Shown here piece by piece: positions 1-22,005 of a stretch of 44,493 nucleotides of DNA. The position numbers were made by a program, and so were the translations under genes. Source of the DNA: a virus; the IMG/VR virus record IMGVR_UViG_3300042556_001144, positions 1 to 44,493 of that record; one strand, written 5' to 3'. The notes beneath the pieces are model-generated. The model made no database searches. It had not been told where the DNA came from and saw only the letters and a list, made by a program, of their open reading frames with translations. Every line of letters starts with the position of its first letter. Within the stretch, counting starts at the first letter, position 1.

Positions 1-2
1 AT

Positions 3-923
3 CCCACGGCACAGTGTCCGACGTGGCGTGGATGCTTGGAGCAGTGGAGCGGTGGGGACGAGAAGTGGGTAAAGCTGCTGCAGAGGGCCATGGGGGCCAT
101 GCTGATGCCGGGTAGGAGGTGGCAGAGGTGGCTGCTGATGCAGGGCAGGGTGAGGGGCGGTAAGGGCACGATCATGCGGGTCGTGAAGAATCTGGTGGGG
201 GATGGGTTTAGGGGATTGAGCATGGCCCAGCTGGCTAGCCAGTTTGGGTTATGGGGCGCTGAGGCAGCTAGGGTGCTGAGCGTAAGTGAATTTGGGGCGC
301 TGAATAGCAGGGAAAGTGAATTGGCGGTGGCGTCACTGAAAAACATTGTGGGTGGGGATCCGGTAAGCATTGATCGGAAGTACATGGAGCCCATCAGGGA
401 TGTGGTGTTGCCGGGGTTCTTGGTGGTTCAGAGCAATGAGATCCCCAAGTTGCCCAATAGGGGGCAGGGTTTGGCGAGCAAGATGCTGGTTTTGCCCTTC
501 TCGAACAGCTTCTTGGGTAGGGAAGACCTGCAGTTGGGCGAGAAGTTGGCTCAGGAGACGGCTGGCATTGCTGCTTGGGCGCTGGAAGGGGCCAAGGAAC
601 TGCTGGAGACGACCGATTCGAGCTCGCTGTGGCCGGTTCCGACGGCTGCGGAGGAGGTTGTGGGTCGGTTCCAGTCGTTGAATAACCCGGTGCAGGACTT
701 CTTGGAGGCCCATTTCGTGGAGAACGAGACGGGCTTCGTGAGCACGACCAACATTTGGGGTCTGTGGCGCACGTGGAAGGTGAAGGTTGGGTACCGGGAG
801 GAGCTGAGCCAGGCCCAGTTGGTGCATAGGGTTGTGGAAGAGGGCGCTTGGAAGCTTACAAGGGCCAGATTGGGTGAGGAGAGGATCCGGGGGGTCAGGG
901 GTCTGGCCGTAAGGTCCGAATAG
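3..923 (+). CDS. P4-family/D5-like DNA helicase (primase C-terminal half), 5' truncated by window edge
   Basis: This is the motor part of a phage primase-helicase that unwinds DNA at the replication fork. The reading frame is open back to base 3, so the N-terminus lies outside the window; a TTG at 36 is only an internal codon. Seen: a Walker A-like loop, QGRVRGGKGTIM, about 45 residues in. Downstream are GDPVSIDRKYMEP, then VVQSNEIPKLPNRGQGLASKMLVLPF, which matches the sensor/arginine block of P4 alpha-type helicases. The C-terminal part (after VGRFQSLNNPVQDF) resembles the winged-helix tail of the family. The sense strand is very G-rich (line 61-120: 27 G, 10 C), unlike the C-rich genes that follow. 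The putative iterons begin right after the stop codon, which fits an origin-binding helicase. The helicase family is well supported; whether a primase domain lies upstream is inferred. Confidence 0.88.
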   Translation, partial: PTAQCPTWRGCLEQWSGGDEKWVKLLQRAMGAMLMPGRRWQRWLLMQGRVRGGKGTIMRVVKNLVGDGFRGLSMAQLASQFGLWGAEAARVLSVSEFGALNSRESELAVASLKNIVGGDPVSIDRKYMEPIRDVVLPGFLVVQSNEIPKLPNRGQGLASKMLVLPFSNSFLGREDLQLGEKLAQETAGIAAWALEGAKELLETTDSSSLWPVPTAAEEVVGRFQSLNNPVQDFLEAHFVENETGFVSTTNIWGLWRTWKVKVGYREELSQAQLVHRVVEEGAWKLTRARLGEERIRGVRGLAVRSE

Positions 924-926
924 GTA

Positions 927-982
927 GTTATCGGGGGTGAGATTTGGGTGTTATCGGTCGCGTTATTGGACTATGTTATTGG
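927..982 (+). repeat. Four direct GTTATYGG repeats (putative iterons)
   Basis: GTTAT(C/T)GG occurs at 927-934, 950-957, 962-969 and 975-982, all in the same orientation, directly after the helicase stop codon. Spacings are 23, 12 and 13 bp. I do not see this octamer clustered elsewhere in the window. P4-type alpha helicases bind iterons at their origins, so an initiator-binding array is the natural reading, but that is inference. Confidence 0.6.
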
Positions 983-991
983 GACGTGGTG

Positions 992-1012
992 GCGATATTG
1001 GGGGAATATCGC
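992..1012. repeat. Perfect 8-bp palindrome GCGATATT-GGGGG-AATATCGC
   Basis: Two perfect inverted 8-bp arms flank a GGGGG spacer, between the two iteron families. It could be a protein-binding operator or a cruciform or strand-opening element of the origin. There is no T-tract behind it, so it is not a terminator. Confidence 0.6.
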
Positions 1013-1020
1013 GGGTGGGC

Positions 1021-1193
1021 GACCACACCTGACCACGTCCCGACCACATGAGGTGGTCTAGGTTAAGTGCTTGTCTTTCCTTTACTTATCTCTTCTCTGA
1101 CCACTAAGACCAGGGAAATAGAAAAACTAGTAAGTGATGGGGCTATAGGTTTCTGGTTTATCCGGGGGTGTGGTCAGTGTGGTCGGGGTGGTC
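1021..1193. repeat. GACCAC/GTGGTC iteron cluster flanking an AT-rich stretch
   Basis: GACCAC occurs at 1021, 1031, 1042 and 1099. Its complement GTGGTC occurs at 1053, 1170, 1179 and 1188. The last three are spaced exactly 9 bp apart, and 1042 and 1053 form an inverted pair. Between the left and right groups (about 1060-1165) the DNA becomes AT-rich, as in an unwinding element. Together with the repeats at 927-982 this looks like a replication origin or a dense operator. Confidence 0.6.
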
Positions 1194-1260
1194 ATGTGGA
1201 ATTTACGAGGAAATTTTGGGAGGGGGATGCTCTTTCTTTTCCACTACGGCCTACGGCCTA

Positions 1261-1293
1261 GGGGGGCATGGCCCCCCGGTGGCTGGCGCCACC
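1261..1293 (+). promoter_or_regulatory. Two adjacent GC hairpins
   Basis: GGGGGGC-ATG-GCCCCCC (1261-1277) abuts GGTGGC-TGGC-GCCACC (1278-1293). Both are perfect stems with 3-4 nt loops and stack end to end. No T-run follows, so a simple terminator is unlikely. They sit at the start of the leader of the gene at 1407. Confidence 0.55.
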
Positions 1294-1301
1294 TTGGCTC
1301 G

Positions 1302-1334
1302 CAGGCTCGCCCAGATAAAAAGGGGATGGGGCTG
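1302..1334 (+). promoter_or_regulatory. Leader element with A5-GGGG (copy 1 of 3)
   Basis: AAAAAGGGGATGGGGCTG (1317-1334) can fold with CAGGCTCGCCC upstream into a hairpin whose loop is A-rich. Similar A5-7/G4-5 elements lie at 1785 and 2786, each 86-94 nt before a start codon. Role unknown. Confidence 0.4.
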
Positions 1335-1349
1335 AAGGAGATGACAGCA

Positions 1350-1404
1350 GTTGGTGGAAGGTCCACCGACTGTGTGTCAAACACATGTTGCTTAGGAGGC
1401 AACA
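1350..1404 (+). promoter_or_regulatory. Three consecutive hairpins, the last displaying the Shine-Dalgarno in its loop
   Basis: Stem GTTGGTGGA/TCCACCGAC (1350-1370, one G.U) is followed by TGTGT-CAA-ACACA (1373-1385) and TGTTGC-TTAGGAG-GCAACA (1386-1404). The ribosome site AGGAGG at 1394-1399 is mostly in the last loop, with its final G in the stem, 7 nt before the ATG at 1407. This is a structured leader likely to control or protect translation. Confidence 0.5.
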
Positions 1405-1406
1405 CA

Positions 1407-1697
1407 ATGGCTGGTATGACCGCTGCTGCTCTCAAGGCGTCTGATCCCTCTCGCACTATGGACGTGTCCGTGGTTCGGGACGACGGGGACAAGGGCATCT
1501 TCCGCTTCCAGATGGTCGCAGAAGACGGCACCCGAGGCACACCGTGGCTCGAGTCCGTGAAGATCCTCGACCGCATCGAACTCGAGCACGAGATCGACGG
1601 CAACATCGTGGCCGAAACCCACATCTTGTGCGAAATGAAGCGGAAGAACAAGACTTCCGGTTCGCTCGAGACCGTGCAGAAGTGGATGTGCATCTGA
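1407..1697 (+). CDS. Small protein of unknown function (96 aa)
   Basis: I do not recognise the family. The protein starts MAGMTAAALKASDPSRTMDV and carries mixed charge, with a basic KRKNK stretch near the end. It has no membrane segment and only two cysteines near the C-terminus. The ATG at 1407 is chosen because a strong AGGAGG lies 7 nt upstream; the frame stays open to 1170 but the extension would run through the leader hairpins. It is the first gene after the putative origin, is monocistronic, and is followed at once by a terminator. This suggests high early expression of an abundant small protein, perhaps a takeover or DNA-binding factor. That role is inference only. Confidence 0.75.
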   Translation: MAGMTAAALKASDPSRTMDVSVVRDDGDKGIFRFQMVAEDGTRGTPWLESVKILDRIELEHEIDGNIVAETHILCEMKRKNKTSGSLETVQKWMCI

Positions 1698-1702
1698 CCT
1701 CG

Positions 1703-1739
1703 GGGAGTCAGGCTTAACCGCCTGGCTCCCTATTTCTTT
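1703..1739 (+). terminator. Rho-independent terminator
   Basis: Stem GGGAGTCAGGC/GCCTGGCTCCC (11 bp with one G.T) has a TTAACC loop and is followed by TATTTCTTT. It lies 6 nt after the stop of the 96-aa gene. Confidence 0.85.
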
Positions 1740-1784
1740 CACTTGCTGGTTCTGGTGTGAGTGACGCACGCCACTACCTCGCAG

Positions 1785-1800
1785 AAAAAGGGGAGAAGGC
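1785..1800 (+). promoter_or_regulatory. Leader element with A5-GGGG (copy 2 of 3)
   Basis: AAAAAGGGGAGAAGGC lies 92 nt before the ATG at 1881 and resembles the elements at 1317 and 2786. Flanking GCC/GGC and CCTC/GGGG can form a short hairpin with an A-rich loop. The rest of 1740-1880 shows nothing coding. Confidence 0.35.
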
Positions 1801-1880
1801 AGGGAAGGAATGGCTGCTGGGATGGGGTAACGCATCCTATCCCCCCACATCTCACACACCTCCAACGCAGGAGATACCAC

Positions 1881-2258
1881 ATGTCGCACTACCAAGATGC
1901 TCTGTATCAGTCGCTCATCGGCATCCGTACGGCACTCTCAATGCTGCTGTATGTGCCAGAGAACGCAGGCATCATGCGCAATGGAACCTTCAGCCACGAT
2001 GCTGGCGGTGTCATGGATCACATGGCCTCGCTCATCGACGCACTCGCCCCCGAGCACGAGGCCCTCGCCGAACCCTCCTGGCCCAAGCCTCAGCCCCCAA
2101 TCCGACTCGACCGAGCCAAGTGCCCACACTGCGGAGGCTCCATGCTCGGCGATGGATATACCACCGTCATGCACTGCGAACGCGTGGACATCTCCTCCGT
2201 GTGCGCTGAACCCGACTCGGCCCACATCTTCTGTGACCCCAACACCCCCAACGACTGA
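1881..2258 (+). CDS. Unknown protein with a CxxC knuckle (125 aa)
   Basis: The function is unknown. The N-terminal half is helical and hydrophobic without a clear membrane segment. Around residue 80 is KCPHCGGSML, a zinc-knuckle-like pair, with further cysteines in MHCERV, SSVCAE and IFCDP that could complete a metal site. This resembles small zinc-ribbon proteins found in phage early regions. The ATG at 1881 has GCAGGAG about 8 nt upstream. It begins a short operon with the genes at 2269 and 2406, with 10 nt to the next gene. Confidence 0.7.
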   Translation: MSHYQDALYQSLIGIRTALSMLLYVPENAGIMRNGTFSHDAGGVMDHMASLIDALAPEHEALAEPSWPKPQPPIRLDRAKCPHCGGSMLGDGYTTVMHCERVDISSVCAEPDSAHIFCDPNTPND

Positions 2259-2268
2259 AAGGAACCCC

Positions 2269-2406
2269 ATGACTCCCATCGAATTCGCTCTCTGCTTCAC
2301 GCTCCTGGCACTCATGTGTGCCGTCGTCATCTCGCCCATCCTCATCCCCTCTGACCCCAAGGAACGCCGCAAGATGGGCGTCCGCCTCCCCGGAGACAAC
2401 GACTAA
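2269..2406 (+). CDS. Small single-pass membrane protein (45 aa)
   Basis: The sequence is a hydrophobic helix (FALCFTLLALMCAVVISPIL, residues about 6-25) followed by a charged tail, DPKERRKMGVRLPGDND. This predicts one inner-membrane segment. AAAGGAA lies just upstream of the ATG. The stop codon TAA overlaps the next ATG in TAATG, implying coupled translation. Its position in the early operon suggests a host-membrane-directed protein, for example for superinfection exclusion or a small regulator. It is far from the lysis region, so it is not obviously a holin. Confidence 0.65.
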   Translation: MTPIEFALCFTLLALMCAVVISPILIPSDPKERRKMGVRLPGDND

Positions 2407-2684
2407 TGCCCGCACTACGCCCAGCACAACCTGGTCCCAACACCTTCTTCTTCGCAGACTACCGTCCTGCTTGGGGTGACAACTTCAACCAGATCGAGTA
2501 CACCGCCCACCTCACCTTCGACAAGGACCCCGAGGGCAAGGACTTCATCACCATCGACGCCATCACCTGCGACGCCGGCTTCGACCTAGACAACCTGCTC
2601 GACGACGAAGAGATCTCCCCCGAGATGTTCTCCGCAGTGTTCGACTACGCCGCCTCCCTCTTCATCCCTGATGACGACGCATGA
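2406..2684 (+). CDS. Acidic protein of unknown function (92 aa)
   Basis: The protein is not recognised. It is strongly acidic, especially after residue 35 (for example DLDNLLDDEEISPEM and a final PDDDA), and rich in Phe/Tyr. It has no membrane segment or known motif. Small, highly acidic phage early proteins are often DNA mimics or inhibitors of host enzymes, but nothing here proves that. Translation is coupled to the membrane protein through TAATG, and a very strong hairpin terminator follows. Confidence 0.7.
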   Translation: MPALRPAQPGPNTFFFADYRPAWGDNFNQIEYTAHLTFDKDPEGKDFITIDAITCDAGFDLDNLLDDEEISPEMFSAVFDYAASLFIPDDDA

Positions 2685-2699
2685 CTCCTGTGTCACTAG

Positions 2700-2760
2700 C
2701 CCCGCGGCGGGGGTGGGGCCTGCGGCCCCCCGCCGCGGGGGATTGTGATTTATTTATTTC
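2700..2760 (+). terminator. Strong rho-independent terminator
   Basis: The outer stem is CCCCGCGGCG/CGCCGCGGGG (2700-2709/2731-2740) and the inner stem GGGGCC-TGC-GGCCCC. It is followed by an AT-rich tail, ATTGTGATTTATTTATTTC. It ends the 1881-2684 operon. Confidence 0.85.
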
Positions 2761-2772
2761 TTCAGCCTTTAC

Positions 2773-2803
2773 GCTCCTCTCCCACAAAAAAAGGGGGAGG
2801 GGC
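2773..2803 (+). promoter_or_regulatory. Leader hairpin with A7 loop (copy 3 of 3)
   Basis: GCTCCTCTCCC pairs with GGGGGAGGGGC over 11 bp (two G.T pairs) around an ACAAAAAAA loop. It lies 94 nt before the ATG at 2886 and is the best-formed member of the A-rich/G4 leader family. Downstream, GTGTGC-GGTT-GCACAC forms a second small hairpin, then an unstructured pyrimidine-rich stretch leads to the ribosome site. Confidence 0.5.
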
Positions 2804-2885
2804 TGGGATGTGTGGCAGCCGCGTGTGCGGTTGCACACCTTGTTTCATTTCATTTCAATCTCTCTTCTACGAAAGGTAACTCGCC

Positions 2886-3404
2886 ATGATTATGACTGAA
2901 ATCCAGGACTCGACGCTCATCAAGCCCGGTACTTACGCTGCCACGCTGCAGAAGGTGCAGATCCGTCCGTCCAAGTCCAAGCCCGGACAGAACAACCTCA
3001 ACTTGACGCTCGCCGTTGTGCTCGACGACGGACGCGTGATGTTCGCCTGGGACACGCTCCCCGAGCCCACGCCGGCCATCGCTTGGCGCTACCTGCAGTA
3101 CATGAAGGCGCTCAACCTCAACCTGCCGTCGGACTTCAACGTCACGCCGGACTCGTTCAAGGACAAGCTCGTCGAGGTGCTCAACAATGACATCGTCTTC
3201 GGTGTCGACATCGGAGTCGAGCAGCAGAAGGGTTACGCTCCACGCAACAAGGTCAGCAAGGTCATGCCGCTGAACGACGTGGACTTCCAGTCTGTCCTCA
3301 AGGCTCAGCGTCACGACACCGACACTGACGCCCCGGCTCAGCCCTCTCGCTTCAGCTCCACGGGTGAGCAGTCGCACCCCTCGGAGTCCGCTCAGACCGT
3401 CTGA
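2886..3404 (+). CDS. DUF669-like putative ssDNA-binding protein (172 aa)
   Basis: It probably coats single-stranded DNA in replication or recombination. The pattern LIKPGTYAATLQKVQIRPSK near residue 10 followed by NLNLTLAVVLDDGRVMF fits the beta-rich, OB-like DUF669 proteins of phages. Mid-protein is an AWRYLQYMKALNL helix, and the C-terminus (from about 145) is a disordered, Ser/Pro-rich tail as in many SSBs. Start: ACGAAAGG lies 8-9 nt before the ATG; a second ATG two codons on is possible. It has its own leader between two terminators, so it is monocistronic and likely abundant. The gene at 16537 is a second candidate with the same ACGAAAGG leader ending. The family assignment is tentative. 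Confidence 0.6.
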   Translation: MIMTEIQDSTLIKPGTYAATLQKVQIRPSKSKPGQNNLNLTLAVVLDDGRVMFAWDTLPEPTPAIAWRYLQYMKALNLNLPSDFNVTPDSFKDKLVEVLNNDIVFGVDIGVEQQKGYAPRNKVSKVMPLNDVDFQSVLKAQRHDTDTDAPAQPSRFSSTGEQSHPSESAQTV

Positions 3405-3436
3405 CCCCCACTCACTTCGTCATACCAGCCGCGTGT

Positions 3437-3485
3437 CCCCCCACCTACCTGTTCAGTAGGTGGGGGGCATGCTTTCTCATTTCAA
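3437..3485 (+). terminator. Rho-independent terminator with perfect 12-bp stem
   Basis: CCCCCCACCTAC (3437-3448) and GTAGGTGGGGGG (3456-3467) enclose a CTGTTCA loop, followed by CATGCTTTCTCATTTC. It closes the DUF669-like gene and lies 35 nt before the next start codon. Confidence 0.85.
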
Positions 3486-3501
3486 TCTGGAGCAAAACGC
3501 A

Positions 3502-4056
3502 ATGTTTGTCTACCGCCTCAACGACATCCGCGAGTCCGACATCCGTTTCAACACGCTCTCACTTGGTAACATCCCCATCAAGATCGAGAACGGTCGACTG
3601 GAACTCGTCGACCCCAACCCCAACGCACCACGCCTCGACCCCGACTTCTGCGACACACCCAACTTCTCGCTTCGTGTGTGTGACAACGAACACGCAGAAC
3701 TCCTGCGTTCACGCAACAACAAGACTCGACTGCAAGCCGACGCATTCCTTGAACTCAAGCTCGGACGCAAGGACTCCGCCCCCTTCATCTCTCGCGAAGA
3801 CCTGTTCGCACGCACCATCGCCGCGTTCTTCGGCATGTTCAACCAGTCGGAGATCTCAGCAGGTGCACTCCCCCCACGTATCCGCGATCGCAACGCCAAT
3901 CCGTTCCTCCCCACCTCCGGCGACCCTGATTTCCGTCGCGCATCCGGCAAGTATCGCCGTGTGCGCCGTCTCGATAGCGACCGTCGTCTCGGTGACGACG
4001 CGTCCTGGTTCACCGTCCATCACTTCGCACCCTCCAACAGGAGCACTGCTCGATGA
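3502..4056 (+). CDS. Unknown protein in the AAA+/VWA operon (184 aa)
   Basis: I do not recognise the family. The N-terminus is mixed beta (FVYRLNDIRESDIRFNTLSL). Around residues 85-125 is a region with LELKLGRKDSAPFISREDLF, and the last 60 residues are Arg-rich (YRRVRRLDSDRRLGDDASWF), suggesting contact with nucleic acid or an acidic partner. The ATG at 3502 is chosen for TCTGGAGC about 8 nt upstream; an in-frame upstream start lies within the terminator. It is the first gene of an operon running to at least 8481 (ATGA overlap with the next). One copy of the dispersed TCCCCCCACG motif lies inside it at 3869. Confidence 0.75.
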   Translation: MFVYRLNDIRESDIRFNTLSLGNIPIKIENGRLELVDPNPNAPRLDPDFCDTPNFSLRVCDNEHAELLRSRNNKTRLQADAFLELKLGRKDSAPFISREDLFARTIAAFFGMFNQSEISAGALPPRIRDRNANPFLPTSGDPDFRRASGKYRRVRRLDSDRRLGDDASWFTVHHFAPSNRSTAR

Positions 4057-4604
4057 AACCCATCTTCTCCATCACCATGGTCTTTGGTACCGGTGATGAC
4101 GCCCTCCTCTCCGTCCTCCGCACCCGTCCATTCTCCGCTGGCTCACCCGACAAGAAGCTCGTGATGTTGGAGCGAGTCGAGTCCTCAGACATGGAGGCCT
4201 ACGTACAGACCCCCGTCAACGGACGCAAGGGAACCTACGCCGTGATGTACACGCAGTCCTCCCCCGACCACTCCATCCCCGACGCATTCTGGAACGCGTT
4301 CTGGGGTGCCATCTCACGCAACCTCCAATTCCAAGCCGTCTGCCGCAACGCCACCATCCTCAAGGACCAGGAGCAGATCCCCTCACCATCCCTCGCAGCC
4401 GGCAAGGACGCAGTCATCGCCGCACTCAACGCCGGCATGGACTTCGATCGCATCATCATCAACGACAAGCTCGCCCCCTCTTCCTTCCTCACCCTGGCCA
4501 ACAAGGCCAAGCACAACTCCGTCTCCTCCTCCACCTACGACCCGTTCTACAAGGACTCGGACATCCCCGACGACATCGACCGCCACGAGAAGGGCTACAA
4601 CTAA
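4053..4604 (+). CDS. Unknown protein (183 aa)
   Basis: There is no recognised family. The N-terminus FSITMVFGTGDDALLSVL and a central MDFDRIIINDKLAPSS segment suggest an alpha/beta fold. The C-terminal 25 residues are polar and acidic (YDPFYKDSDIPDDIDRHEKG). The start codon overlaps the previous stop (ATGA) and its own stop overlaps the next start (TAATG), so the proteins at 3502, 4053 and 4604 are probably made in fixed proportion. They always precede the AAA+/VWA pair here and are candidate partners or substrates of it. Confidence 0.75.
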   Translation: MKPIFSITMVFGTGDDALLSVLRTRPFSAGSPDKKLVMLERVESSDMEAYVQTPVNGRKGTYAVMYTQSSPDHSIPDAFWNAFWGAISRNLQFQAVCRNATILKDQEQIPSPSLAAGKDAVIAALNAGMDFDRIIINDKLAPSSFLTLANKAKHNSVSSSTYDPFYKDSDIPDDIDRHEKGYN

Positions 4605-5128
4605 TGACCACCATCACCCAATACAACCTGGACAACCCACCCGTGGGCCTCGCGCCCATCAGCCTGGCCTGCAACTTTGACGCACCACTTCTCAGCAAGG
4701 AGATCCGCTCTCGCTTCTCTGCACTCGCCAATCTGCGCACCACCCTGCTCCTCGGCACCGATGTCTACGAGGAGATTGAGTTCGATTCCAAGGCACCCAT
4801 CATCACCAACAAGCGCATGCTCGAGTACGCAGGCGTCAAGCTCCGAGCACCAGTCGACGTCCCAACGCACGACATCAACGCACACCTCACCTTCCTCATC
4901 AACTGCCTCGCCGCACTCAACGTCTACCTCACCAACACCAACCACCTCAACGACATCGACCTCTACATCCTCCTCTTCCACGAAGTCCTGGAAGAGGAGA
5001 TCCCCTTCCTGCCCCCATCCGTGGGCGTCTGCGAACTCATCGACATGAACTACAACCGTGCTCCGGCCGACCCCGTCGTCGACCGTGACTCCACCCTGCC
5101 GCAACCCCCATCAGGACCCATCTTCTAA
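4604..5128 (+). CDS. Unknown acidic protein (174 aa)
   Basis: The function is unknown. It is a helical, leucine-rich protein (FSALANLRTTLLLG near residue 38; LTFLINCLAALNVYL near 102), acidic overall, ending in a Pro-rich tail. The hydrophobic stretches are too interrupted for confident membrane helices. It is translationally coupled to its neighbours: TAATG at the start, and two bases separate its stop from the next ATG. It lies in the AAA+/VWA operon. Confidence 0.75.
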   Translation: MTTITQYNLDNPPVGLAPISLACNFDAPLLSKEIRSRFSALANLRTTLLLGTDVYEEIEFDSKAPIITNKRMLEYAGVKLRAPVDVPTHDINAHLTFLINCLAALNVYLTNTNHLNDIDLYILLFHEVLEEEIPFLPPSVGVCELIDMNYNRAPADPVVDRDSTLPQPPSGPIF

Positions 5129-5130
5129 CC

Positions 5131-5331
5131 ATGGTCATGCCCAACCCCACCTCCACCGACCTCGAGACGCGTCTCTCCAATCTCGAGAAGGCATTTCTCA
5201 CCCTTGTCAACGTGGTCAAGCTCGACCACGAATCGCAGAAACTCTTCGACCAGAAGATGGACCTCATCAACGCCAAGGTGGACGCACTCGCCGCGTTCAT
5301 CAAGCTCGCACCCACCACCAAGGAGGACTGA
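5131..5331 (+). CDS. Small coiled-coil protein (66 aa)
   Basis: A continuous heptad pattern covers most of the protein (LETRLSNLEKAFLTLVNVV, then KLFDQKMDLINAKVDALAAF), predicting a helical oligomer. It could be an oligomerisation or adaptor subunit for the ATPase encoded immediately downstream, whose start lies 1 nt after this stop. The start is the ATG at 5131, with a second ATG two codons later. No enzymatic motif. Confidence 0.7.
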   Translation: MVMPNPTSTDLETRLSNLEKAFLTLVNVVKLDHESQKLFDQKMDLINAKVDALAAFIKLAPTTKED

Positions 5332-5332
5332 C

Positions 5333-6364
5333 ATGTCATCGTTCAACATCTCGCCCGCTGCTCTCGCTGCCCTGCGTGCACGCGTCAACGCCATCAAGCC
5401 CGTCACCCCAGCCCCGTCCGCACGCCTCACCTCACCGGACCCCATGCCACCCGAAACCCACAAGCCCGCACACGATGACGGTCTGTTTGCCGCATCCCCC
5501 CACGGTCTGTCCGTCCCGGGCAACACGCCCGCAACTCCGACCGAACGCATCGACCTGGAGATCGACGCCAACCTCTCCACCTATCTCCACGCCATCGCCG
5601 CTGACCCGCAGATCCACAACGTCCGACTCATCGGTCCGACCGGCTGCGGCAAGACCTCCATCGGCCAGTGGCTGGCCCAGGAGACCCGTCGTCCCTCGCT
5701 CATCATGGACTGCGCCGTGATCCGTGAGCCGCGCGACTGGTTCGGCTATCGCACCATCGTCAACTCCCAGATCACGTGGGTCGACTCGACCTTCGTCCGC
5801 ACTGTCGAGGCAGGCAACGCCATCATCGTGCTCGACGAACTCAACCGTGCCCCAGCCTCCGTGCTCAACGGTCTCTTCGGCCTGCTCGATCATCGTCGTG
5901 AGTGCCACGTCGAGGAGCGCGGTCGTCCCGTGCGCGTCGGACCCAACACCATCTTCATGGCCACGACCAACGTCGGTGCCAAGTACGTCGGCGCATCCCC
6001 CATCGACTCCGCCATCCGCAACCGCTTCGCTCGCGTGATCGAAGTCTCCTACCTCAACCCCACCGAAGAGGCCAACCTCCTCACTCGCCGCACCAACCTG
6101 CCCCTTGCCCAGGCCTCAGCCCTGTGCGAAGTCGCAGCCACCACCCGTTCCAAGACCTCAGCCATCGAGGCCTTCTCCACGCGTGAACTTCTCGCCATCG
6201 CCTACGACTTGCACCGCTTCGGTGAGCAGTCTCTGCGCTACACCATGCTCTCCAAGGTCGAAGACCCTGCCCAGCGTGCAGCACTCGCCACTCTCCTCAC
6301 CGGCAAGTTCCCCTCCATCATGGGCACTGTCACCTCCACCACCACCAACACGGAGCCCTTCTGA
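5333..6364 (+). CDS. MoxR/CobS-like AAA+ ATPase (343 aa)
   Basis: This is an ATP-driven ring protein that probably remodels a protein complex with the VWA protein next to it. A Pro-rich, likely disordered N-terminus (residues 1-75) precedes the AAA+ core: Walker A GPTGCGKTS at about 101-109, Walker B IIVLDELNRA at about 163-172, sensor 1 ATTNVG near 208, and an arginine-finger-like AIRNRFARV near 227. The LDELNRA form of Walker B and the length are typical of MoxR/CobS ATPases. AAGGAGGA lies about 6-8 nt before the ATG at 5333. The stop overlaps the VWA gene's ATG (TGATG). Phage AAA+/VWA pairs are known from N4-like viruses, but their target is not established. It is not good evidence for cobalamin synthesis, because no other cob genes are present. 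Confidence 0.9.
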   Translation: MSSFNISPAALAALRARVNAIKPVTPAPSARLTSPDPMPPETHKPAHDDGLFAASPHGLSVPGNTPATPTERIDLEIDANLSTYLHAIAADPQIHNVRLIGPTGCGKTSIGQWLAQETRRPSLIMDCAVIREPRDWFGYRTIVNSQITWVDSTFVRTVEAGNAIIVLDELNRAPASVLNGLFGLLDHRRECHVEERGRPVRVGPNTIFMATTNVGAKYVGASPIDSAIRNRFARVIEVSYLNPTEEANLLTRRTNLPLAQASALCEVAATTRSKTSAIEAFSTRELLAIAYDLHRFGEQSLRYTMLSKVEDPAQRAALATLLTGKFPSIMGTVTSTTTNTEPF

Positions 6365-8481
6365 TGCTGCGCAAAGTCATCGACGAGTTCGACATCGACC
6401 CGACTGGCTGGTTCGACCTGCCCACCGACGCATCCAACCCCCAAGTCGACCACTACACTCGGCCCGCAACCAACCTGTGGTCCCTGTGGGTCAAGAACCC
6501 CATTGAGGTTCTCTTCGTAACCGAGGACACAATCTCCAACCAGTCCCTCGTCTCTCTCGCACGCTCCATCTCTCGTGCCTTCACACACAAGGGTGACTGT
6601 TGCAAACCCATCCGTCGTCTCACTGACGATGAGTTCATCTCGCTCCTCATCCAGGCCCACGCCTATCGCAACAACACCTTCACTCTCGACTGCAGCGTCG
6701 TGTCCGATCTCGAACGGGACATCGAGTCCACCTATCTCAACATCAGGGAGAAGCACACACCCTGCGTCTACCTGCCCAACTACTTCATCAACCCGCAGTT
6801 CGCAGGTGATGTCGGCGACTACTACCTCCTCACCGACGGCATGACTGGCTACGGACTCGAGGCCATGGAGACCATCTCGTTCGTCCTCCCCACGCTTGGT
6901 CGCATCGGCATCAGCAACCTCATCCAGATCCACGACAAGTCCCTCATCCCCGACACGACTGACGGACTCCGTCACCCCGACGCAATCCGTGCCGAGTGTG
7001 CACTCGACATCTGGTGGGCACTCCAAGTCCGTGACATCCGCTCTCGCATCCTCACTCAGTGGCCCGGCTGGTCCGACATCTTCAATGCCCAGGACTCCCT
7101 GCTCCTCCCCGCAGTGGAGACCATGCAGAACCACGTTTCCAAGAAGTCCCCCCAGCGATCAGAGCTCCGTCGTTTCTGCATCGCCATGACGTGGAACCTC
7201 AACCCCCAAGCCACACGCCTGAAGTTCCCGCGTGGCACTGACAACGCGTACAACGCCGCAGTCTCCGCTTGGTCCACCATCCTCTCCACTCCCGAGACCG
7301 ACGGCGCACGCCTCGTCGCCATCCACAACTTCATCTCCTCACTCAACCTCGACACCGAGGAACGACGCATGCGTACTGACCGTGGTGGCCAATCAGGTAT
7401 CGACAACGGCAACCTCGATGGCAAGCCCACCCGCAAGTCCCGCATGAATCGCAATCGCCATGGGATCTTCGTCGAGCCCAGCTCGAACGATACCAAGAAC
7501 AAGGACGAAGGCATCGTGCCTGGTGTCATCGCCCCATGTGGAGACTGGAATCGTCTGCTCAACTCCAGCCACCCTGACCACCAGATGGATGCGCACCATG
7601 CCCGTGACTATCGTGCCACATCCATCAAGTTCCAATCCGAGTACCGTGCACGCATTGCCGATCAGATCTCTGGCAGTGCGTGGTTCGTGCCCAACCCACC
7701 GCCCCTCGAACACGGCAACCTCGACGGCGTCCTCGACGAGGGCAATCTCCTGCGCTACGCTGCCTTCTCCGATCCCAACATCTTCTCCGTCCGGCCCGAT
7801 GCCGGCAACGGACAGATCGTGATCGGCATCCTCGTCGACGGCTCAGGCTCCATGGGTGCCACTCTCCGTGGCCCCGACGGCAAGCCCCTCCCCAATCTCC
7901 CAACCTGCATGCACGGAGCCATGTGCTTCCTTGCCGGCGTACGTGATGGCCTCACCCGCAACTCCAACATCAAGGTCGAAGCCTTCTCCTTCGACTCACG
8001 ACTCAAACTGGAATCCGATAACTCCAATCACCCACTCAACATCACGCTGCCACTTCCCCCCACGATGTCAGAACATCTGTGCGTGCTTCGTCGACTCGAC
8101 ACCGAAGACGACATGCTCAACAACAAGCCAGGCGGTGGCACTCCCATCTCCTGTGCCATCCACACCCTGAACCAGCACCTCGAGTGCAACTACCCCGATG
8201 CCCATCGCATCATGCTCATCCTGACTGACGGCGACCCGCAAGCTCTCTGCCAGCACCCTGACTACCCCGACCGCACCCATCACGACGACACCAACGAAGT
8301 TCGCAAGATCGTCTCCTCCATTTCCACACCCGTGTTCTGTGTCGGTATCAACGTCGATGCGTCCGCCCTCCAGGCCCAGTACAATGTGGGTCATTGGTTC
8401 GTGGTCGACTCCCCACTCAAGGCTGCAGACGTCGCAGCCGATCTCGTGCGGGGAATCGGACAGTCACTCAACTGTTGCTAA
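6364..8481 (+). CDS. VWA-domain protein, partner of the AAA+ ATPase (705 aa)
   Basis: It probably acts as substrate adaptor for the MoxR-like ring through a metal-dependent VWA domain (MIDAS). Seen: the C-terminal VWA domain with DGSGSMG at about 493-499, the threonine motif GGGTPIS near 590 and the aspartate motif LTDGDPQ near 620, so all three MIDAS elements are intact. The N-terminal 480 residues are helical and not recognised; around 340-380 is a basic linker (RKSRMNRNRH). The layout (large N-terminus, C-terminal VWA) resembles CobT-like proteins. It is coupled to the ATPase by TGATG. One TCCCCCCACG copy lies at 8055, inside the VWA coding region. Confidence 0.88.
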   Translation: MLRKVIDEFDIDPTGWFDLPTDASNPQVDHYTRPATNLWSLWVKNPIEVLFVTEDTISNQSLVSLARSISRAFTHKGDCCKPIRRLTDDEFISLLIQAHAYRNNTFTLDCSVVSDLERDIESTYLNIREKHTPCVYLPNYFINPQFAGDVGDYYLLTDGMTGYGLEAMETISFVLPTLGRIGISNLIQIHDKSLIPDTTDGLRHPDAIRAECALDIWWALQVRDIRSRILTQWPGWSDIFNAQDSLLLPAVETMQNHVSKKSPQRSELRRFCIAMTWNLNPQATRLKFPRGTDNAYNAAVSAWSTILSTPETDGARLVAIHNFISSLNLDTEERRMRTDRGGQSGIDNGNLDGKPTRKSRMNRNRHGIFVEPSSNDTKNKDEGIVPGVIAPCGDWNRLLNSSHPDHQMDAHHARDYRATSIKFQSEYRARIADQISGSAWFVPNPPPLEHGNLDGVLDEGNLLRYAAFSDPNIFSVRPDAGNGQIVIGILVDGSGSMGATLRGPDGKPLPNLPTCMHGAMCFLAGVRDGLTRNSNIKVEAFSFDSRLKLESDNSNHPLNITLPLPPTMSEHLCVLRRLDTEDDMLNNKPGGGTPISCAIHTLNQHLECNYPDAHRIMLILTDGDPQALCQHPDYPDRTHHDDTNEVRKIVSSISTPVFCVGINVDASALQAQYNVGHWFVVDSPLKAADVAADLVRGIGQSLNCC

Positions 8482-8494
8482 TGGAGACCCCTCA

Positions 8495-8779
8495 ATGCCA
8501 ACAGATGCGAACGGAACTAACCTGCGTACTTTGTGGCACGCATTCAAGCAGCGACCCGTACCCGCCATCACACTTGTGGATCTGCGCCATGAAGATACAG
8601 GCGCACGAATCCCCACCTTGTGTGTCATCGAGTCCCACCCAGACGGGGACAGACTCTTCCCCTACGCCTTCATGATTGATCGAGACCTGCACGACTTCTG
8701 TCGCAAGCTCCAGGTCCCCGAGCAATACGAAGCCATCTGGGATTGGTGCATCCCACCAAAGAAGGAACCCACCGCATGA
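8495..8779 (+). CDS. Unknown protein (94 aa)
   Basis: The family is not recognised. It is a compact, mixed alpha/beta protein with several aromatic residues near the end (YEAIWDWCIPPKK). The ATG at 8495 follows GGAGA by about 8 nt. The gene overlaps the next by ATGA. It sits between the VWA gene and the DNA repair and replication genes. Confidence 0.7.
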   Translation: MPTDANGTNLRTLWHAFKQRPVPAITLVDLRHEDTGARIPTLCVIESHPDGDRLFPYAFMIDRDLHDFCRKLQVPEQYEAIWDWCIPPKKEPTA

Positions 8780-9012
8780 GCGACGATCCCATGAGCTCAG
8801 CCCTACTTCACATTGAAGAACTTGAATCTCGATGCGAGCATCTCGAAACAGACAGGAACAACCTGACCCTTGCCCTTGAAACCGCCCTCCGCGAACGCGA
8901 CGAAGCACGGCGTGAAATACTGTTGTGGGTCAAGGAGCGGTGTTCTTGGGTGGAACTGTCGCAGGAGATCAAGCAACGAGGATGGGAGTATCTAAAGGAG
9001 GACCACAAGTGA
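8776..9012 (+). CDS. Small coiled-coil protein (78 aa)
   Basis: A long charged helix with heptads (HIEELESRCEHLETDRNN, then ALETALRERDEARREIL) predicts a coiled coil. The C-terminus WVELSQEIKQRGWEYLKED is also helical. The start overlaps the previous stop (ATGA) and the stop overlaps the GTG of the UDG-like gene (GTGA). The 3' end carries that gene's AAAGGAGGA ribosome site. Role unknown. Confidence 0.7.
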   Translation: MSDDPMSSALLHIEELESRCEHLETDRNNLTLALETALRERDEARREILLWVKERCSWVELSQEIKQRGWEYLKEDHK

Positions 9013-9683
9013 ACCTCCTGGTCCTGCCCCAACCCCAGTGCACAGCGTGCGACCTGCACAAGTACGCAAAGAACCCCGGAGTCCCCGGGGTTTTTCTTCC
9101 CGACTCCCAGCCCCTCCACCCCTCGACGCCCGTGGTCGCAGTACTCGGCATGAACCCCGGCTTCCAGGAGGACCGATCCAACGAGCCATTCGTCGGGCCC
9201 TCGGGCAAGATGCTCAAGGAGATCTACCTCCCCGCCATCACCCCGCTCGCCACCGTGCTCCTCCTCAACACCGCCCGCTGCTACACCCCCGCAGCTGCCC
9301 CGCCCAAGCCCCGCCACTTTCGCTGCTGTTTTCCCAAGTTCTCCGCCCAGGATCTTGACACCATCGGCGGCATCATCCAACCTAACGTCCCCAAGATCCT
9401 GCTGTGCACCGGCGCTCACGCCATCTCCACTGTGACCAAGTTCACACACCCCAAGCCCTGGTCCCTGACCTCCGCCTTCACCAAGCAAGGTACCCCCACC
9501 AACCTGTGGGGGGACTGGCAACTCTTCACGACGTTCCATCCCGCCGCTGTGCTCCGCTCTCGCAATCTCCTGCACCCCGTCGCCGATCACATGACTCTCG
9601 TCCATGCCGCACTGACTGGCGCGATGCCTGTAGCATCCTCGCCGCGTGTCGTCCCCCCATTCTCCCCCTTCGAGGTATCCTGA
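9009..9683 (+). CDS. Uracil-DNA glycosylase-like protein (224 aa)
   Basis: It belongs to the UDG superfamily, which removes uracil from DNA or, in phages such as SPO1, is fused to or partnered with the DNA polymerase. Seen: a CTACDLHKYAK N-terminus like the cysteine-containing start of family 4/5 enzymes; the catalytic block VAVLGMNPGFQEDRSNEPF followed by GPSGKML; and a C-terminal FTTFHPAAVLRSR, matching the HPs/HPaa motif. The active-site loop reads GMNPG instead of the commoner GEAPG. GTG at 9009 is the start because a strong AAAGGAGGA lies just upstream. The family A polymerase follows three genes later, which fits a role in replication or repair. Confidence 0.8.
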   Translation: MNLLVLPQPQCTACDLHKYAKNPGVPGVFLPDSQPLHPSTPVVAVLGMNPGFQEDRSNEPFVGPSGKMLKEIYLPAITPLATVLLLNTARCYTPAAAPPKPRHFRCCFPKFSAQDLDTIGGIIQPNVPKILLCTGAHAISTVTKFTHPKPWSLTSAFTKQGTPTNLWGDWQLFTTFHPAAVLRSRNLLHPVADHMTLVHAALTGAMPVASSPRVVPPFSPFEVS

Positions 9684-10138
9684 TGCACACCAGCTTCGCA
9701 ATCACACTCTCGGACCTACAGTCCTATGCCGACAAGAGGAAGTTCTCCTCCAACAAGTCGGACTTCGAAGCCCTCGAAGCGATGTTCACTTCGGTCACCG
9801 AGCACCACGACGACTCCTACGACATCGTCATCACCGGCATGATCGAGGTGGAGTTCCATGAACCCACCATGGTTCCCTATGGTGAAACCTACGTATCACT
9901 CAATGACGCCTCGCACAACGTGGTCAACGCCGACATCGATGAAATCTTCTGCCGACTCCACAGCAGAACCCGAGACACTGAGATCTTCACCGAGACCGAA
10001 CTCCTGAAGAAGAAGGTGCTCGCCAATCTAGAAGACCTGATCGAGCACTACTTCCAGCACAACATCGACGAGCTGGATACCGAACCTGACTTCGATCCAC
10101 CAGAAGCACCGGAACCCACGCACTTCTTTGACGAGTGA
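9683..10138 (+). CDS. Acidic protein of unknown function (151 aa)
   Basis: Not recognised. It begins MHTSFAITLSDLQSYADKRK and has a central beta pattern (YDIVITGMIEVEFHEP). Its C-terminal third is very acidic (HNIDELDTEPDFDPPEAPEP). The start overlaps the UDG stop (TGATG). The end overlaps the GTG of the sigma-like gene. It could be a replication accessory protein, but no motif shows this. Confidence 0.7.
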   Translation: MHTSFAITLSDLQSYADKRKFSSNKSDFEALEAMFTSVTEHHDDSYDIVITGMIEVEFHEPTMVPYGETYVSLNDASHNVVNADIDEIFCRLHSRTRDTEIFTETELLKKKVLANLEDLIEHYFQHNIDELDTEPDFDPPEAPEPTHFFDE

Positions 10139-10140
10139 CC

Positions 10141-10356
10141 ATGCACAAGGCAACACGTCCCAGCACGTACCTCGTCAACGTGCCACGACGAGGTGACTAC
10201 CGTGCCATCGTTCCGACTGCACCCATCCGCACCCAGCAGGAAGTGGCCGAGATCTTGGGCATGACCAAGGCCCAGGTCACACACCACGAAAGGATGGCGC
10301 TGAGCAAGATACGTGCAGCTCTCATCGCCTATGGCTACAAGGACCCCAACGCATGA
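10141..10356 (+). CDS. Mini sigma-factor region 4-like HTH protein (71 aa)
   Basis: A helix-turn-helix of the sigma-70 region 4.2 type covers residues about 30-60 (RTQQEVAEILGMTKAQV, then HHERMALSKIRAAL). This domain binds -35 promoter elements. No region 2 or 3 is present, so the protein cannot act alone as a sigma factor. It may redirect the host polymerase, or act as an anti-sigma or -35-binding regulator. The start is uncertain: a GTG at 10135 overlaps the previous stop (GTGA) and the ATG is at 10141. The stop overlaps the polymerase start (ATGA). Confidence 0.7.
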   Translation: MHKATRPSTYLVNVPRRGDYRAIVPTAPIRTQQEVAEILGMTKAQVTHHERMALSKIRAALIAYGYKDPNA

Positions 10357-12350
10357 AGCTCATCTCGCTTGACATCGAGACGTATGGTGCGTGCACCCAC
10401 AACTCCAAGGGCCAGGTCCTCCCCTCCCAATCCGCCTTCCATCCACAACGCGCACTTACCACCGACGGCGTCTCACGTAACAACATGGTTCTTACGTGCA
10501 CCATCACCACGGAAGTCCACTCGTGCCCGTGCACCAAGAACTACAAGGCCATCACGCTAGACCAGGCGAAGCCCTGTTGTACCTTCACCATGCACATGGA
10601 CCAGGAGAAGGACCGGGTACTTCTTCATCGTTGGCTGACGTGGGCTGACACCATCCTCGGCATGAACCTGCCCTTTGACCTGCAGTTCCTGCGAGCCTGT
10701 GACCACAGGTTCCAGTTCGCCCTGCCCCCGTACGGCAAGACCCTGTTCGACCTGTCCATCCTCAACTACCTCCACTCGGAACTGCGCCCAGAACGATCGC
10801 TCAAATCCCTTGGACCAGTCCTCGGCACTCATGCCTACAAGCGTACCATCAAGGACGGCAAGTTCCGTTCCCCCCACGATCCTGAGTTCCTCGACTACGC
10901 AGCCCAGGACACGCACAATACCCTGCTCGCCTCTTCCGAACTCGCCCGTCGCATCCTGCTGGACTGGCCTGGCACGGACAAGCTCTCGCCCTACTGCATC
11001 CAGCACTACTCGGACTGCCTGTGGACCATCATCACCATGTCCGAAGCCGGCATCCCCATGTCCCGCAAGGACTTGGACAACCTGCAGTCCACCCTCCTGA
11101 TCCAAGCATCTGATGCCATGGCCAAGGCCGAATCCCACGGCGTCCAGCTCGAGGGCACCGGCTCTACCAAGAGCAAGACCGAGTTCCTCAATGTGACAAA
11201 TGGTCTGCTCTCAGCCCGGGGAGTCGACATCTTGTCACATCCCCTAGCTCAGTTCACGGAGAAGACACGAGCCTTCTCCTTCTCCGACGCCAATCGGAAC
11301 CTGATCCGTGGGTTCCTCCGGGACACCGACACTAGGGAGATCGCAATCCTCGAAGCTGCAGCCGCTCATCAGCAGGCACAGAAGATGCTCTCCACCTACA
11401 TCTGGCCCCTGCTCCACGGCAAGCGCAACAAGCCCGAGGACAAGTCGTCCACCATTCTCCCACTCCCACATACCGGCGAGGCTGACGGGCTCGCCTTCCC
11501 AGTCTGGTACCCAGTACCCTCCGCTTCCAAGGACGCTTCCGGTTCCGAGGGCGGCACCATCCAAGGCCGCATTACCTGCAAGAACCCCAGCGCCCAGACC
11601 TTTCCCCCCACGATCAAGGCAACGATCAAGTCCCGGTTCCATGGTGGTACCATCCTGTCTCTCGACCTGTCCCAGATCGAGTTGCGAGTTGCTGCTCTGT
11701 GCTCCGGCGACAAGTCCCTGCTTGCCGCCTTCAACGATGGCCTCGATCTCCACACTGATCGGGCCGTCCAGCTCTTCGGCAAGGACTGCCTCTCGTCTCC
11801 AACTTTCAAGAAGCTTGAGCGCCAGGTCGGCAAGACTATGAACTTCGCCGACCTCTTCCTCGCTTCCCCCTTCCGGATGCGCATGTCCGTCCATGAGATG
11901 ACCGGCCAGCTCATGCCCCTCGCCTTCTTCGAGGAGGTGGCCGAGACCCGACCCGACGCCCGCCCCGGCCTCCACGCCTGGCAGCAGTCCCTCATCCGCA
12001 CTGCCGACGCCCAGGGCTCCCTGACCCTGCCCTTCACCGGCCAGTCCCGCACCTTCGTGGGGGGAAGCTCCGAGCACCTCAACGAGATCGTCAACTTCCC
12101 CATTCAGACCCAGGCCGGCAACACCCTCCTCGCCATCCAGCGGGCCATTGCCCCCCTCCTGTCCCCCCACGTCAAGATGTTCCTCCAGATCTATGACGCG
12201 GTCTACCTCGACGTGCACCCCTCAGTGGACCTGGATTCCCTAAAGCAGAAGTTAAAGTTCCACATTGAGGAAGTCCGGGACACCGGCTACTGGGCCATGC
12301 TCCAGTCCCATTACGGACATACCGTTCCGCTGGAGTACGACTTTAGCTAG
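10353..12350 (+). CDS. Family A DNA polymerase with 3'-5' exonuclease (665 aa)
   Basis: This is the replicative DNA polymerase, similar in size to T7 gp5. The proofreading domain is complete: Exo I SLDIETYG at residue 5, Exo II GMNLPFDLQFLR near 103, Exo III DYAAQDTHN near 183. The polymerase domain has motif A SLDLSQIELR near 437 and motif B RQVGKTMNF near 490. Motif B then continues ADLFLAS where Pol I enzymes have the GxxYG stretch, so the conserved Tyr and Gly (E. coli 766/767) are Phe and Leu. Motif C is QIYDAVYLD near 612 instead of VHDE; the catalytic Asp is kept, the His and Glu are not. There is no 5'-3' exonuclease domain. Two exact TCCCCCCACG copies and one complement lie within it. 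Confidence 0.93.
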   Translation: MKLISLDIETYGACTHNSKGQVLPSQSAFHPQRALTTDGVSRNNMVLTCTITTEVHSCPCTKNYKAITLDQAKPCCTFTMHMDQEKDRVLLHRWLTWADTILGMNLPFDLQFLRACDHRFQFALPPYGKTLFDLSILNYLHSELRPERSLKSLGPVLGTHAYKRTIKDGKFRSPHDPEFLDYAAQDTHNTLLASSELARRILLDWPGTDKLSPYCIQHYSDCLWTIITMSEAGIPMSRKDLDNLQSTLLIQASDAMAKAESHGVQLEGTGSTKSKTEFLNVTNGLLSARGVDILSHPLAQFTEKTRAFSFSDANRNLIRGFLRDTDTREIAILEAAAAHQQAQKMLSTYIWPLLHGKRNKPEDKSSTILPLPHTGEADGLAFPVWYPVPSASKDASGSEGGTIQGRITCKNPSAQTFPPTIKATIKSRFHGGTILSLDLSQIELRVAALCSGDKSLLAAFNDGLDLHTDRAVQLFGKDCLSSPTFKKLERQVGKTMNFADLFLASPFRMRMSVHEMTGQLMPLAFFEEVAETRPDARPGLHAWQQSLIRTADAQGSLTLPFTGQSRTFVGGSSEHLNEIVNFPIQTQAGNTLLAIQRAIAPLLSPHVKMFLQIYDAVYLDVHPSVDLDSLKQKLKFHIEEVRDTGYWAMLQSHYGHTVPLEYDFS

Positions 12351-17686: not shown

Positions 17687-18063
17687 GCTACCGCCACCGA
17701 GTGAACGGAGGGCCCCGGTCACCGGCTCGCCCCTCCCAGAAGAAGGGTGAACTTCAGGCCCACGCCGACATGCTCGAGCGCATGGTCAACCGGTTCGCCG
17801 AGCGCATCCGGGTACTAGAGTCCCTTCACACTCTGCGGGTAGAGGAAGCTGGATTGATTCTTAGCACGGTGTTCATGCTGTACCGACGGTGGCGTGAGGA
17901 GCAGCCGGATGAACCCGACCGTGGATCCTCATTCATGCACTGGGTAGAGCGTCTTCGAGCAGAGGAAGTTGTGTCCTACGCCATGGGTGCGTGGGATAAC
18001 AAGAACCTGCCGTTAGTCCCCCTCATTGGGAGCGAAGACATCGACATTGAATCCGCGGATTGA
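17683..18063 (+). CDS. Unknown helical protein, last gene of the + arm (126 aa)
   Basis: The N-terminus is basic and Ser/Pro-rich (HRVNGGPRSPARPSQKKG). The core is helical with heptad character (LQAHADMLERMVNRFAERIR), suggesting a coiled coil, and the C-terminus is acidic (IGSEDIDIESAD). Function unknown. Start overlaps the previous stop (ATGA). Its last 51 nt overlap the 3' end of the convergent 1310-residue virion gene, so the two transcription arms run into each other here with no visible terminator. Confidence 0.7.
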   Translation: MSYRHRVNGGPRSPARPSQKKGELQAHADMLERMVNRFAERIRVLESLHTLRVEEAGLILSTVFMLYRRWREEQPDEPDRGSSFMHWVERLRAEEVVSYAMGAWDNKNLPLVPLIGSEDIDIESAD

Positions 18064-21000: not shown

Positions 21001-21945
21001 TAGACGCCCTTCGGGTGGAATCTCAACCGCTTCCACAGTGATATGGGGAAGATCCTTGCCAAGCTTCTCCCGAGCCGCCTTGTGGTTGGCTTGGCTGTTT
21101 GTGACGATGGGCTCGTCAATAATTTCAAACTCTTCATCCGAGTCAGCAAACGTAACCTTGGCTCCCTGCTTGTACTTCAAGTGCGCTGTCTTGTCGGGGA
21201 TGGCCGGAAGAATGCGAACAGACGCATTACCAGCAGAGTCTTGGACTGTGGCCACGCGGGTCATACTTCTGACAAACGTGGTAGGAATGGCGTCGTCTTC
21301 AAACAAGCCACCCTGCATTGCCGCTGTAATCTTGTTGAGCAGGCTGAGCTTCTGGTACTTCACACCAGAAAAGCGGGTGTGGTCAAAGTCATCCACAGGC
21401 GAACCAACTACTCGGCCAATGTGCTCGAGCATTGCAGCACGCTCGGCACCACCCAGTTCGTGCATGCGCTCCATCAACTCTCGCTTGCGATTTGTAAGGT
21501 GGTTGATGACTCGAGAGGTCAGCCCATGCTCATTCATGAAGGCGGAACCCAACAGGTTCATGTGGCGTAGACCGTCCACAAACTTACGGCCTACCTTCCC
21601 AACCTCACTAGCACCAGCCAGTGCGCGTCCCCCCGCTTTCGCAAACTGCTTGCGAGTCACAGGACTGGTCATCATAAGCAACCAGATAAGTGGGTTCGTT
21701 GCTAGGTCAATAGTGGTATCGACCAGTGCGTTGCCACCGTACTGCTTCTTGATCCGTTGAACAAAGGAGTCACGCTCTCGTGGGCTAAGCGACTCCTCTT
21801 CCACAAGCGTTCGAACTGCCCGGCCCAAAGATCCTTCCCCATCAAAGAGCTGGGTCAGGATTGTTGCGGGAGCATCGTAGAAAGAAACCGGCTCCCAATC
21901 AGGAAGGCCTTCTTCATCCACTTTGATGTTGGGCTTGCTTTGCAT
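18013..21945 (-). CDS. Very large internal virion/ejection-type protein (1310 aa)
   Basis: It is probably an internal virion protein ejected into the host, by size (T7 gp16 is about 1.3 kDa x 10^2, 1318 residues) and by its place at the end of the late arm. It is mostly helical. Hydrophobic patches occur near residue 80 (NPLIWLLMMTSP) and around 1000-1130 (MLLQFPLRFATTPITAG; VDIATGIVGGLL). No lysozyme or protease motif is convincing. The C-terminus (YADWSNPNEQGMIPVYKDDG onward) has the pattern seen at the ends of large phage virion proteins. The ATG at 21945 lies only a few bases after a terminator-like T-run and has no visible Shine-Dalgarno. Confidence 0.75.
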   Translation of the reverse strand: MQSKPNIKVDEEGLPDWEPVSFYDAPATILTQLFDGEGSLGRAVRTLVEEESLSPRERDSFVQRIKKQYGGNALVDTTIDLATNPLIWLLMMTSPVTRKQFAKAGGRALAGASEVGKVGRKFVDGLRHMNLLGSAFMNEHGLTSRVINHLTNRKRELMERMHELGGAERAAMLEHIGRVVGSPVDDFDHTRFSGVKYQKLSLLNKITAAMQGGLFEDDAIPTTFVRSMTRVATVQDSAGNASVRILPAIPDKTAHLKYKQGAKVTFADSDEEFEIIDEPIVTNSQANHKAAREKLGKDLPHITVEAVEIPPEGRLPMTRAQAMSVLANEGFDPNLVVRYVESRVRQQKDLITKAMGEMVETDAGPRVRVNTEKILKMLQQHKAEGGSFIPSTAEEQAIMELVGGTSENLLPDWVIDAVRDNTMNKKTLTNLVRELYETQINNPHYAPRSIANQYTKAQDNLGVRVEPYDVIGVGDEKGKALKVRSAALIRDREDVLLDPGDLQEIYQSARGFLSDDQAEMFQNRIERTRFILNQKLDQNKIMSTLPLDFERAGRAYEQKMMGHIMLYGDDVPEFLNAELETVKRSPKKLDLTDRTYFELDEPDKFRRDTYRMLGITEERLERIAFGDATYPPEIKFDSASRVYRQKIANIQDQLDAGVSSEAQLIRLEQLKAKYERERDFIREYRDPFVSARKPSNIRELLSVLLPRENQHTNELMQDFIIPRVFGGAQGKHLVAMTALQSTRSAMQTFVNSRVGKFFEETGGPLGQLYEKAKSFAERPVYLQDASNLSRNTAGYLYANHLSGLMTGVYNAMQPFTWGATWLGVPEILAAMPKAVRQVMAYKADRVKYGVVMDPEQRRKLWKKHVRLADFDGRDLTMMDDGVLSSYDSAILSSPIQTKPGLLRTVFMELPLKLFQTIEQVNRVAMAEAGISFVNKNNLAAGIRRTSAEIADEVQTIQSMSNFAPQLTTRPRLLMDPKTGAGLLANPAMGMLLQFPLRFATTPITAGAVYGGKRSFGLQKFGGPEFGEIPAQVGDVLRVLGISAAIYEMGKNLMGVDLSPGLSAAALGGFAQSVGGGWLPVPVDIATGIVGGLLEQDREQIRRQLFRLAPAGIPLSKALGALPPIPGGGPFGLLQSQYADWSNPNEQGMIPVYKDDGTLQSFSSPLELVMRGVGFNPQKFQSPEAATKFLLANRRQIVDLKRKYKDAVLANNMPLATQIEGEYRTRFGVSMTVKPTEWDQAIKLREVSVSERMVDTLPGEVRGAFQQALASDPMASRMGLPEGGLYAGETARQRESIRGFNVDVFAPNEGD

Positions 21946-21985
21946 AATGAAAAGGCCCCGGTGCGATTTCTCAGCGACCGGGGCC
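21946..21985 (-). terminator. Rho-independent terminator abutting the 1310-aa gene start
   Basis: Read on the - strand: GGCCCCGGT, a 14-nt loop, ACCGGGGCC, then TTTTCATT directly before ATG at 21945. It is a classical terminator by shape, but its T-run ends 4 bases before the next start codon. Confidence 0.75.
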
Positions 21986-22005
21986 CGTTCCGGGGGTTCA
22001 GTACG

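Follow-up and report, generated by a model that had tools for sequence, protein, structure and literature searches.

Introduction

SaPI Rep and Cch2 bind, by means of their C-terminal domain, iterons situated just 3′ of their own genes (PMC7581432), and the origins of PICIs, located immediately 3′ of rep, comprise an AT-rich region between two iteron sets and were found to support plasmid replication (PMC6092414). In phage P4 the origin repeats are bound by a winged helix of the alpha protein (PMC4234260). Streptococcus phage Sfi11 and Lactobacillus phage phiadh encode a helicase of the same family as the one considered here and have a rep_origin directly 3′ of the primase/helicase gene, in which iteron arrays face each other across an AT-rich stretch; both are known as annotations, that of Sfi11 being labelled putative. 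Here, we analysed the virus record IMGVR_UViG_3300042556_001144 over the whole stretch of 44,493 bases (further referred to as the window), for which the original prediction proposed a candidate replication origin with two iteron families and a palindrome beside a P4-type helicase gene. The locus shows the position and the opposing arrays described for Sfi11 and phiadh. An uncultivated phage lineage now has a likely replication start, linked to the annotated origins of dairy phages by geometry and not by sequence.

Helicase gene and genome setting

The gene preceding the repeats encodes the C-terminal part of a D5/P4-type SF3 helicase (Table 1), with 306 aa inside the window versus 465 aa in relatives. 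Its product is matched by Pfam DUF5906 (2.2e-9) and Pox_D5 (3.5e-4) and by primase/helicase families of PHROG (down to 2.5e-37), while the profile of the full helicase retrieves the SaPI5 primase-helicase 7ola (4.6e-17), its closest solved relative; the expectation of a P4-family helicase just before the repeats was thereby borne out. The AlphaFold2 model of positions 618-920 (C-terminal 101 aa) is a winged helix with mean pLDDT of 81, for which the best matches among solved structures are the RFX1 DBD (Z 10.0), RFX5 (9.5), AsfvPrimPol (8.4) and the phage P4 origin-binding domain 1ka8 (8.4), clearly unrelated entries staying below Z 6. The helicase C-terminus models as a winged helix of the RFX/P4-origin-binding type; only this domain model was used, since the SF3 core of the full-length model was poor (mean pLDDT 59).

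At the protein level the modelled domain makes the helicase similar to P4 alpha, which is also an SF3 helicase with a C-terminal winged helix; P4 alpha possesses a bacterial-type (Toprim) primase domain, whereas no Pfam primase domain was detected in a 465-aa relative of the protein studied here. With the rep-ori of SaPI/PICI and the Cch2 site of SCCmec the locus shares an SF3 helicase having a C-terminal binding domain (predicted in our case) and iterons immediately 3′ of the gene. Unlike SaPI/PICI, the window represents a phage and not a satellite: an AAA ATPase, a uracil-DNA-glycosylase-like protein, a family-A DNA polymerase and a PD-(D/E)XK nuclease are encoded on the plus strand 3′ of the element, and the terminase large subunit is found at the opposite end on the minus strand. 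A PICI-type satellite needing a helper phage for packaging was rejected on account of these own terminase and polymerase genes, and the PLE RepA origin was discarded as a parallel because its initiator belongs to a different family. The window contig is 44.5 kb long and relatives, among them the contigs of L006, L010 and L017, are of about 50 kb; blastn of the first 8 kb of the window against reference phages matched nothing. At the protein level, 741 reference phages have a match to this helicase. Minus-strand ORFs of 1310, 817 and 543 aa within 18013-30662 have no PHROG match, and the longest one has no Pfam match either.

Organization of the repeats

Eight exact GACCAC/GTGGTC copies (starts in Table 1) fall within 327 bp (924-1250), while dinucleotide shuffles contain 0.27 copies on average and 3 at most, 0 of 2000 reaching eight. 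All eight are contained in one 200-bp stretch, the densest of the whole window, the maximum per 200 bp elsewhere being two. The predicted eight copies, three of them in 9 bp steps, were thus reproduced, but a ninth site, GACCAG, had been overlooked 9 bp 3′ of the copy at 1099, and this site is kept in relatives. The iterons form two opposing sets (1021-1113 versus 1170-1193), and the stretch enclosed between them, expected to be AT-rich, proved to be so only mildly, with about 50-63% AT in most 30-bp windows, the contig having here about 55-60% GC. The four direct GTTATYGG repeats (shuffle mean 0.04; 0 of 2000 shuffles reach four) and the perfect palindrome, with 8-bp arms, are both present as foreseen, and the latter possibly gives a hairpin at the 3′ end of the helicase mRNA. 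The Rfam search assigned the window no RNA family, and the scan of the window region for promoters and terminators revealed neither of them.

Table 1. Positions of the element, its constituents and related genes in the window
Feature	Position	Strand	Basis or remark
D5/P4-type SF3 helicase gene, C-terminal part, presumed initiator	3..923	+	Pfam, PHROG, profile matches
Winged-helix DNA-binding domain (predicted)	690..920	+	AlphaFold2 model and structure matches
Four GTTATYGG repeats (927, 950, 962, 975), accessory	927..982	+	Shuffles
Perfect palindrome GCGATATT-GGGGG-AATATCGC, accessory hairpin	992..1012	.	RNA fold z -3.8
Core array	1021-1193		Left array, inverted copy, middle pair, right array
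Left iteron array, GACCAC at 1021, 1031, 1042 (steps 10 and 11 bp)	1021..1047	+	Sites, shuffles, alignment
Single inverted GTGGTC (start 1053), end of left array	1053..1058	-	Alignment conservation
Pyrimidine-/AT-rich spacer	1059..1098	+	Inverted site to middle pair about 45 bp; 43-45 bp in relatives
Middle pair GACCAC TAA GACCAG (starts 1099, 1108), 9 bp step	1099..1113	+	Alignment
Mildly AT-rich spacer between opposing arrays, candidate melting site	1114..1169	.	Composition, geometry (putative role)
Right array, GTGGTC at 1170, 1179, 1188 (9 bp steps)	1170..1193	-	Shuffles, alignment
Conserved 3′ block GGAAATTTTGGGAGGGGGATGCTCTTTC	1209..1236	+	Aligned loci diverge completely past block
Family-A DNA polymerase	10353-12350

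Conservation among relatives

The helicase search resulted in 21 loci. The loci of the GACCAC type, 18 in number (the window and 17 relatives), were aligned past the helicase. The array of this type is kept in 17 of 17 fetched relatives, L003 being truncated at its contig end, and the 18 aligned cores combine three left sites in steps of 10-11 bp, an inverted site, a middle pair with a 9 bp step and two or three right sites spaced by 9 bp. Downstream sequence varies among relatives while the array stays, and the strict pattern is represented by one copy per contig in 12 of 12 matching contigs. The element is also intact in L009 and L014, which have an additional ORF between it and the helicase (4235-4800 and 8934-9600, respectively), inserted exactly after the helicase stop and placed there independently in two lineages.

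The other constituents behave differently. GTTATYGG is found in 0-4 copies among relatives, with zero in the L006 subclade, and the exact palindrome sequence is confined to the window and L002. In L006, L007, L008, L010 and L011 the helicase stop codon shares bases with the first GACCAC, for which reason the L006 subclade has no space for either the repeats or the palindrome. Since both are absent or altered in many relatives, they are considered accessory. Comparison of the region in related phages, suggested along with the original prediction, therefore upheld only one of the two proposed iteron families, the GACCAC array, as the conserved core, leaving the variable GTTATYGG repeats and the palindrome outside of it.

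In L004 and L018 (8961-8990 in both) the palindrome of the window is replaced by a hairpin GGGTGAC..GTCACCC followed by the T-run TTGTTTTTT, which looks like a terminator of the helicase transcript. The 3′ side of the element is closed, across clades with differing iteron motifs, by an AAATTTTGRKAnSGGnnnnnnCTTTC-like block (1209-1236 in the window), similar blocks being present in L006, L015, L017, L019, L022, L189 and L288; it gave neither a promoter nor an Rfam match. A divergent 470-aa ORF occupies the terminase position in L006, about 40 nt away from the start of the helicase gene.

Spacing of the sites and scans of other genomes

In relatives at 45-48% helicase identity GACCA is replaced by GTACC with similar spacing. 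Start-to-start steps are 10, 11, 12 (inverted), 45, 9, 63 (inverted), 9 and 9 bp in the window, 10, 10, 24 (inverted), 43, 9, 62 (inverted) and 9 bp in L213, and 11, 11, 14 (inverted), 43, 9, 82 (inverted) and 9 bp in L209, the helicase of which is only 34% identical. When same-lag matches were summed over nine representatives, lags 9, 10 and 11 exceeded all 500 shuffles, lags 6-7 and 12-15 remaining inside the shuffle range. For the held-out L288 (Myxococcales MAG contig, 44% identity) the left and middle parts fit only with the core taken as GTRCC, and the right-hand cluster is irregular. Covariation of the winged helix with the motif (predicted recognition helix with VEE and wing with ER in GACCAC clades; LQD/VQE/IQD and GG in GTACC clades) was left uncounted because the GACCAC clades group together and may reflect a single event.

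The DNA-only pattern scan of viral contigs yielded 80 loci, 15 with a recognisable helicase and 65 without it, and in all 15 helicase-bearing loci the match is located 27-556 nt beyond the helicase 3′ end; four of these (L085, L113, L114 and L147) are absent from the protein-search results, L085 and L113 matching the helicase profile weakly. Among the matches listed for the GTACC scan (at least 120 loci), 14 of 120 have a helicase-profile hit, seven of them with the match in the expected place. The motif-blind scan, accepting any 5-mer within fixed spacing ranges, found in the whole window a sole match, the pair at 1099, and was also positive for the annotated rep_origin of Sfi11 (five-site form) and phiadh (four-site, reduced form), as well as for Lactococcus 56701, Javan163 and Str01. 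No region had more than 0.5% positive shuffles and the adjacent helicase gene was without a match, the spacing ranges having been picked after the window clade, Sfi11, phiadh and 56701 had been seen. The strict scan was positive for only two of 12 later-fetched reference phages, and L031, L033, L036, L043, L045, B025, four Streptococcus satellites and other listed phages gave no match to strict spacing; still, some of the negative loci, the four satellites included, contain repeats with steps of 8, 9 or 11 bp.

The geometry of Sfi11 reads as inverted site, 44 bp, pair at 8 bp, 76 bp and opposing pair at 8 bp, while phiadh, which does not have the five-site form, shows a pair at 11 bp, 84 bp and an opposing pair at 10 bp. 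They differ from the window in motifs (GTTAC, GTGTA), in a wider central gap and in a core that is far more AT-rich.

Discussion

The core array at 1021-1193 (924-1240 in its wider extent) is very probably a phage replication origin, at which the adjacent SF3 helicase would bind the GACCAC sites and melt the spacer. The candidate origin of the original prediction is supported in this respect by conservation of the array, by the layout of annotated origins and by the modelled P4-OBD/RFX-like winged helix, and the best reading of the element is a self-loading-helicase origin of the P4/SaPI/PICI/Sfi-phiadh kind, that is, of a kind already known. The helicase encoded by the gene ending at 923 would contact the sites via its C-terminal RFX/P4-like winged helix and assemble there, probably as two hexamers, one on the rightward left and middle sites and the other on the leftward right sites. 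Facing each other across 1114-1169, the sites may seat both hexamers toward the spacer, which would be melted prior to unwinding of the DNA; priming and synthesis by the phage family-A DNA polymerase could then follow, and initiation is presumably bidirectional. The GC skew changes sign at the element: it is about +0.4 in the helicase gene and falls to values between -0.2 and -0.37 downstream (window 1-12000, with plus-strand genes on both sides). Third codon positions show this flip as well (+0.48 versus -0.13 to -0.68). Groups A-C have it too; since it is weak in group D and its sign is opposite to that of a usual bacterial origin, it was set aside as origin evidence.

Arrays of short sites may also function as operators, and the early genes lie downstream of the element on the same strand, as would suit a transcriptional control region with repeats serving a phage regulator of these genes. 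We consider such a role improbable, as the scan of 850-1450, confined to the sigma-70-like type, detected no promoter of this type, the array is constant while the sequence following it differs among relatives, annotated origins next to helicases of this family have the same layout, and the adjacent helicase is modelled with a domain of the origin-binding type. Separately from its origin, phage P4 contains a further alpha-binding region, crr, and by analogy the array might be a helicase-binding copy-number or incompatibility site with the true origin elsewhere; the presence of a single such array in the window and of one per matching contig makes this highly improbable. A packaging or partition site (cos/pac or centromere-like) would be in line with the ORF at the terminase position near the L006 helicase start and with the conserved block at the 3′ edge of the element, past which sequences diverge, but it is scarcely credible for an array that is tied to the helicase in 15 of 15 helicase-bearing loci of the DNA scan and resembles origins, not packaging sites.

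For the origin reading, the part that may be new is the spacing. We tentatively propose, rating it at somewhat less than an even chance, that self-loading D5/SF3-helicase phage origins obey a motif-independent geometric rule reflecting the seating of two helicase hexamers. In this rule an inverted site is followed after about 43-45 bp by a pair of sites in the same direction (8-9 bp apart) and, after about 62-82 bp more, by an opposing pair (8-9 bp apart), a left array with steps of 10-11 bp being often present. No description of such motif-independent spacing was found in the open-access literature searched. If the rule is true, origins could be found from spacing alone, their motifs diverging along with the winged helix, which would provide a sequence-only way to locate origins next to SF3 helicases and would raise the structural question of how sites with steps of 9 and 11 bp accommodate the winged helices of two hexamers.

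As a separate observation, Streptococcus satellite phage Javan634 (2427-3020 of L285) contains, directly 3′ of its primase gene, GGTGACCAA repeats 9 and 11 bp apart, and their motif is close to TGACCAC of the window.
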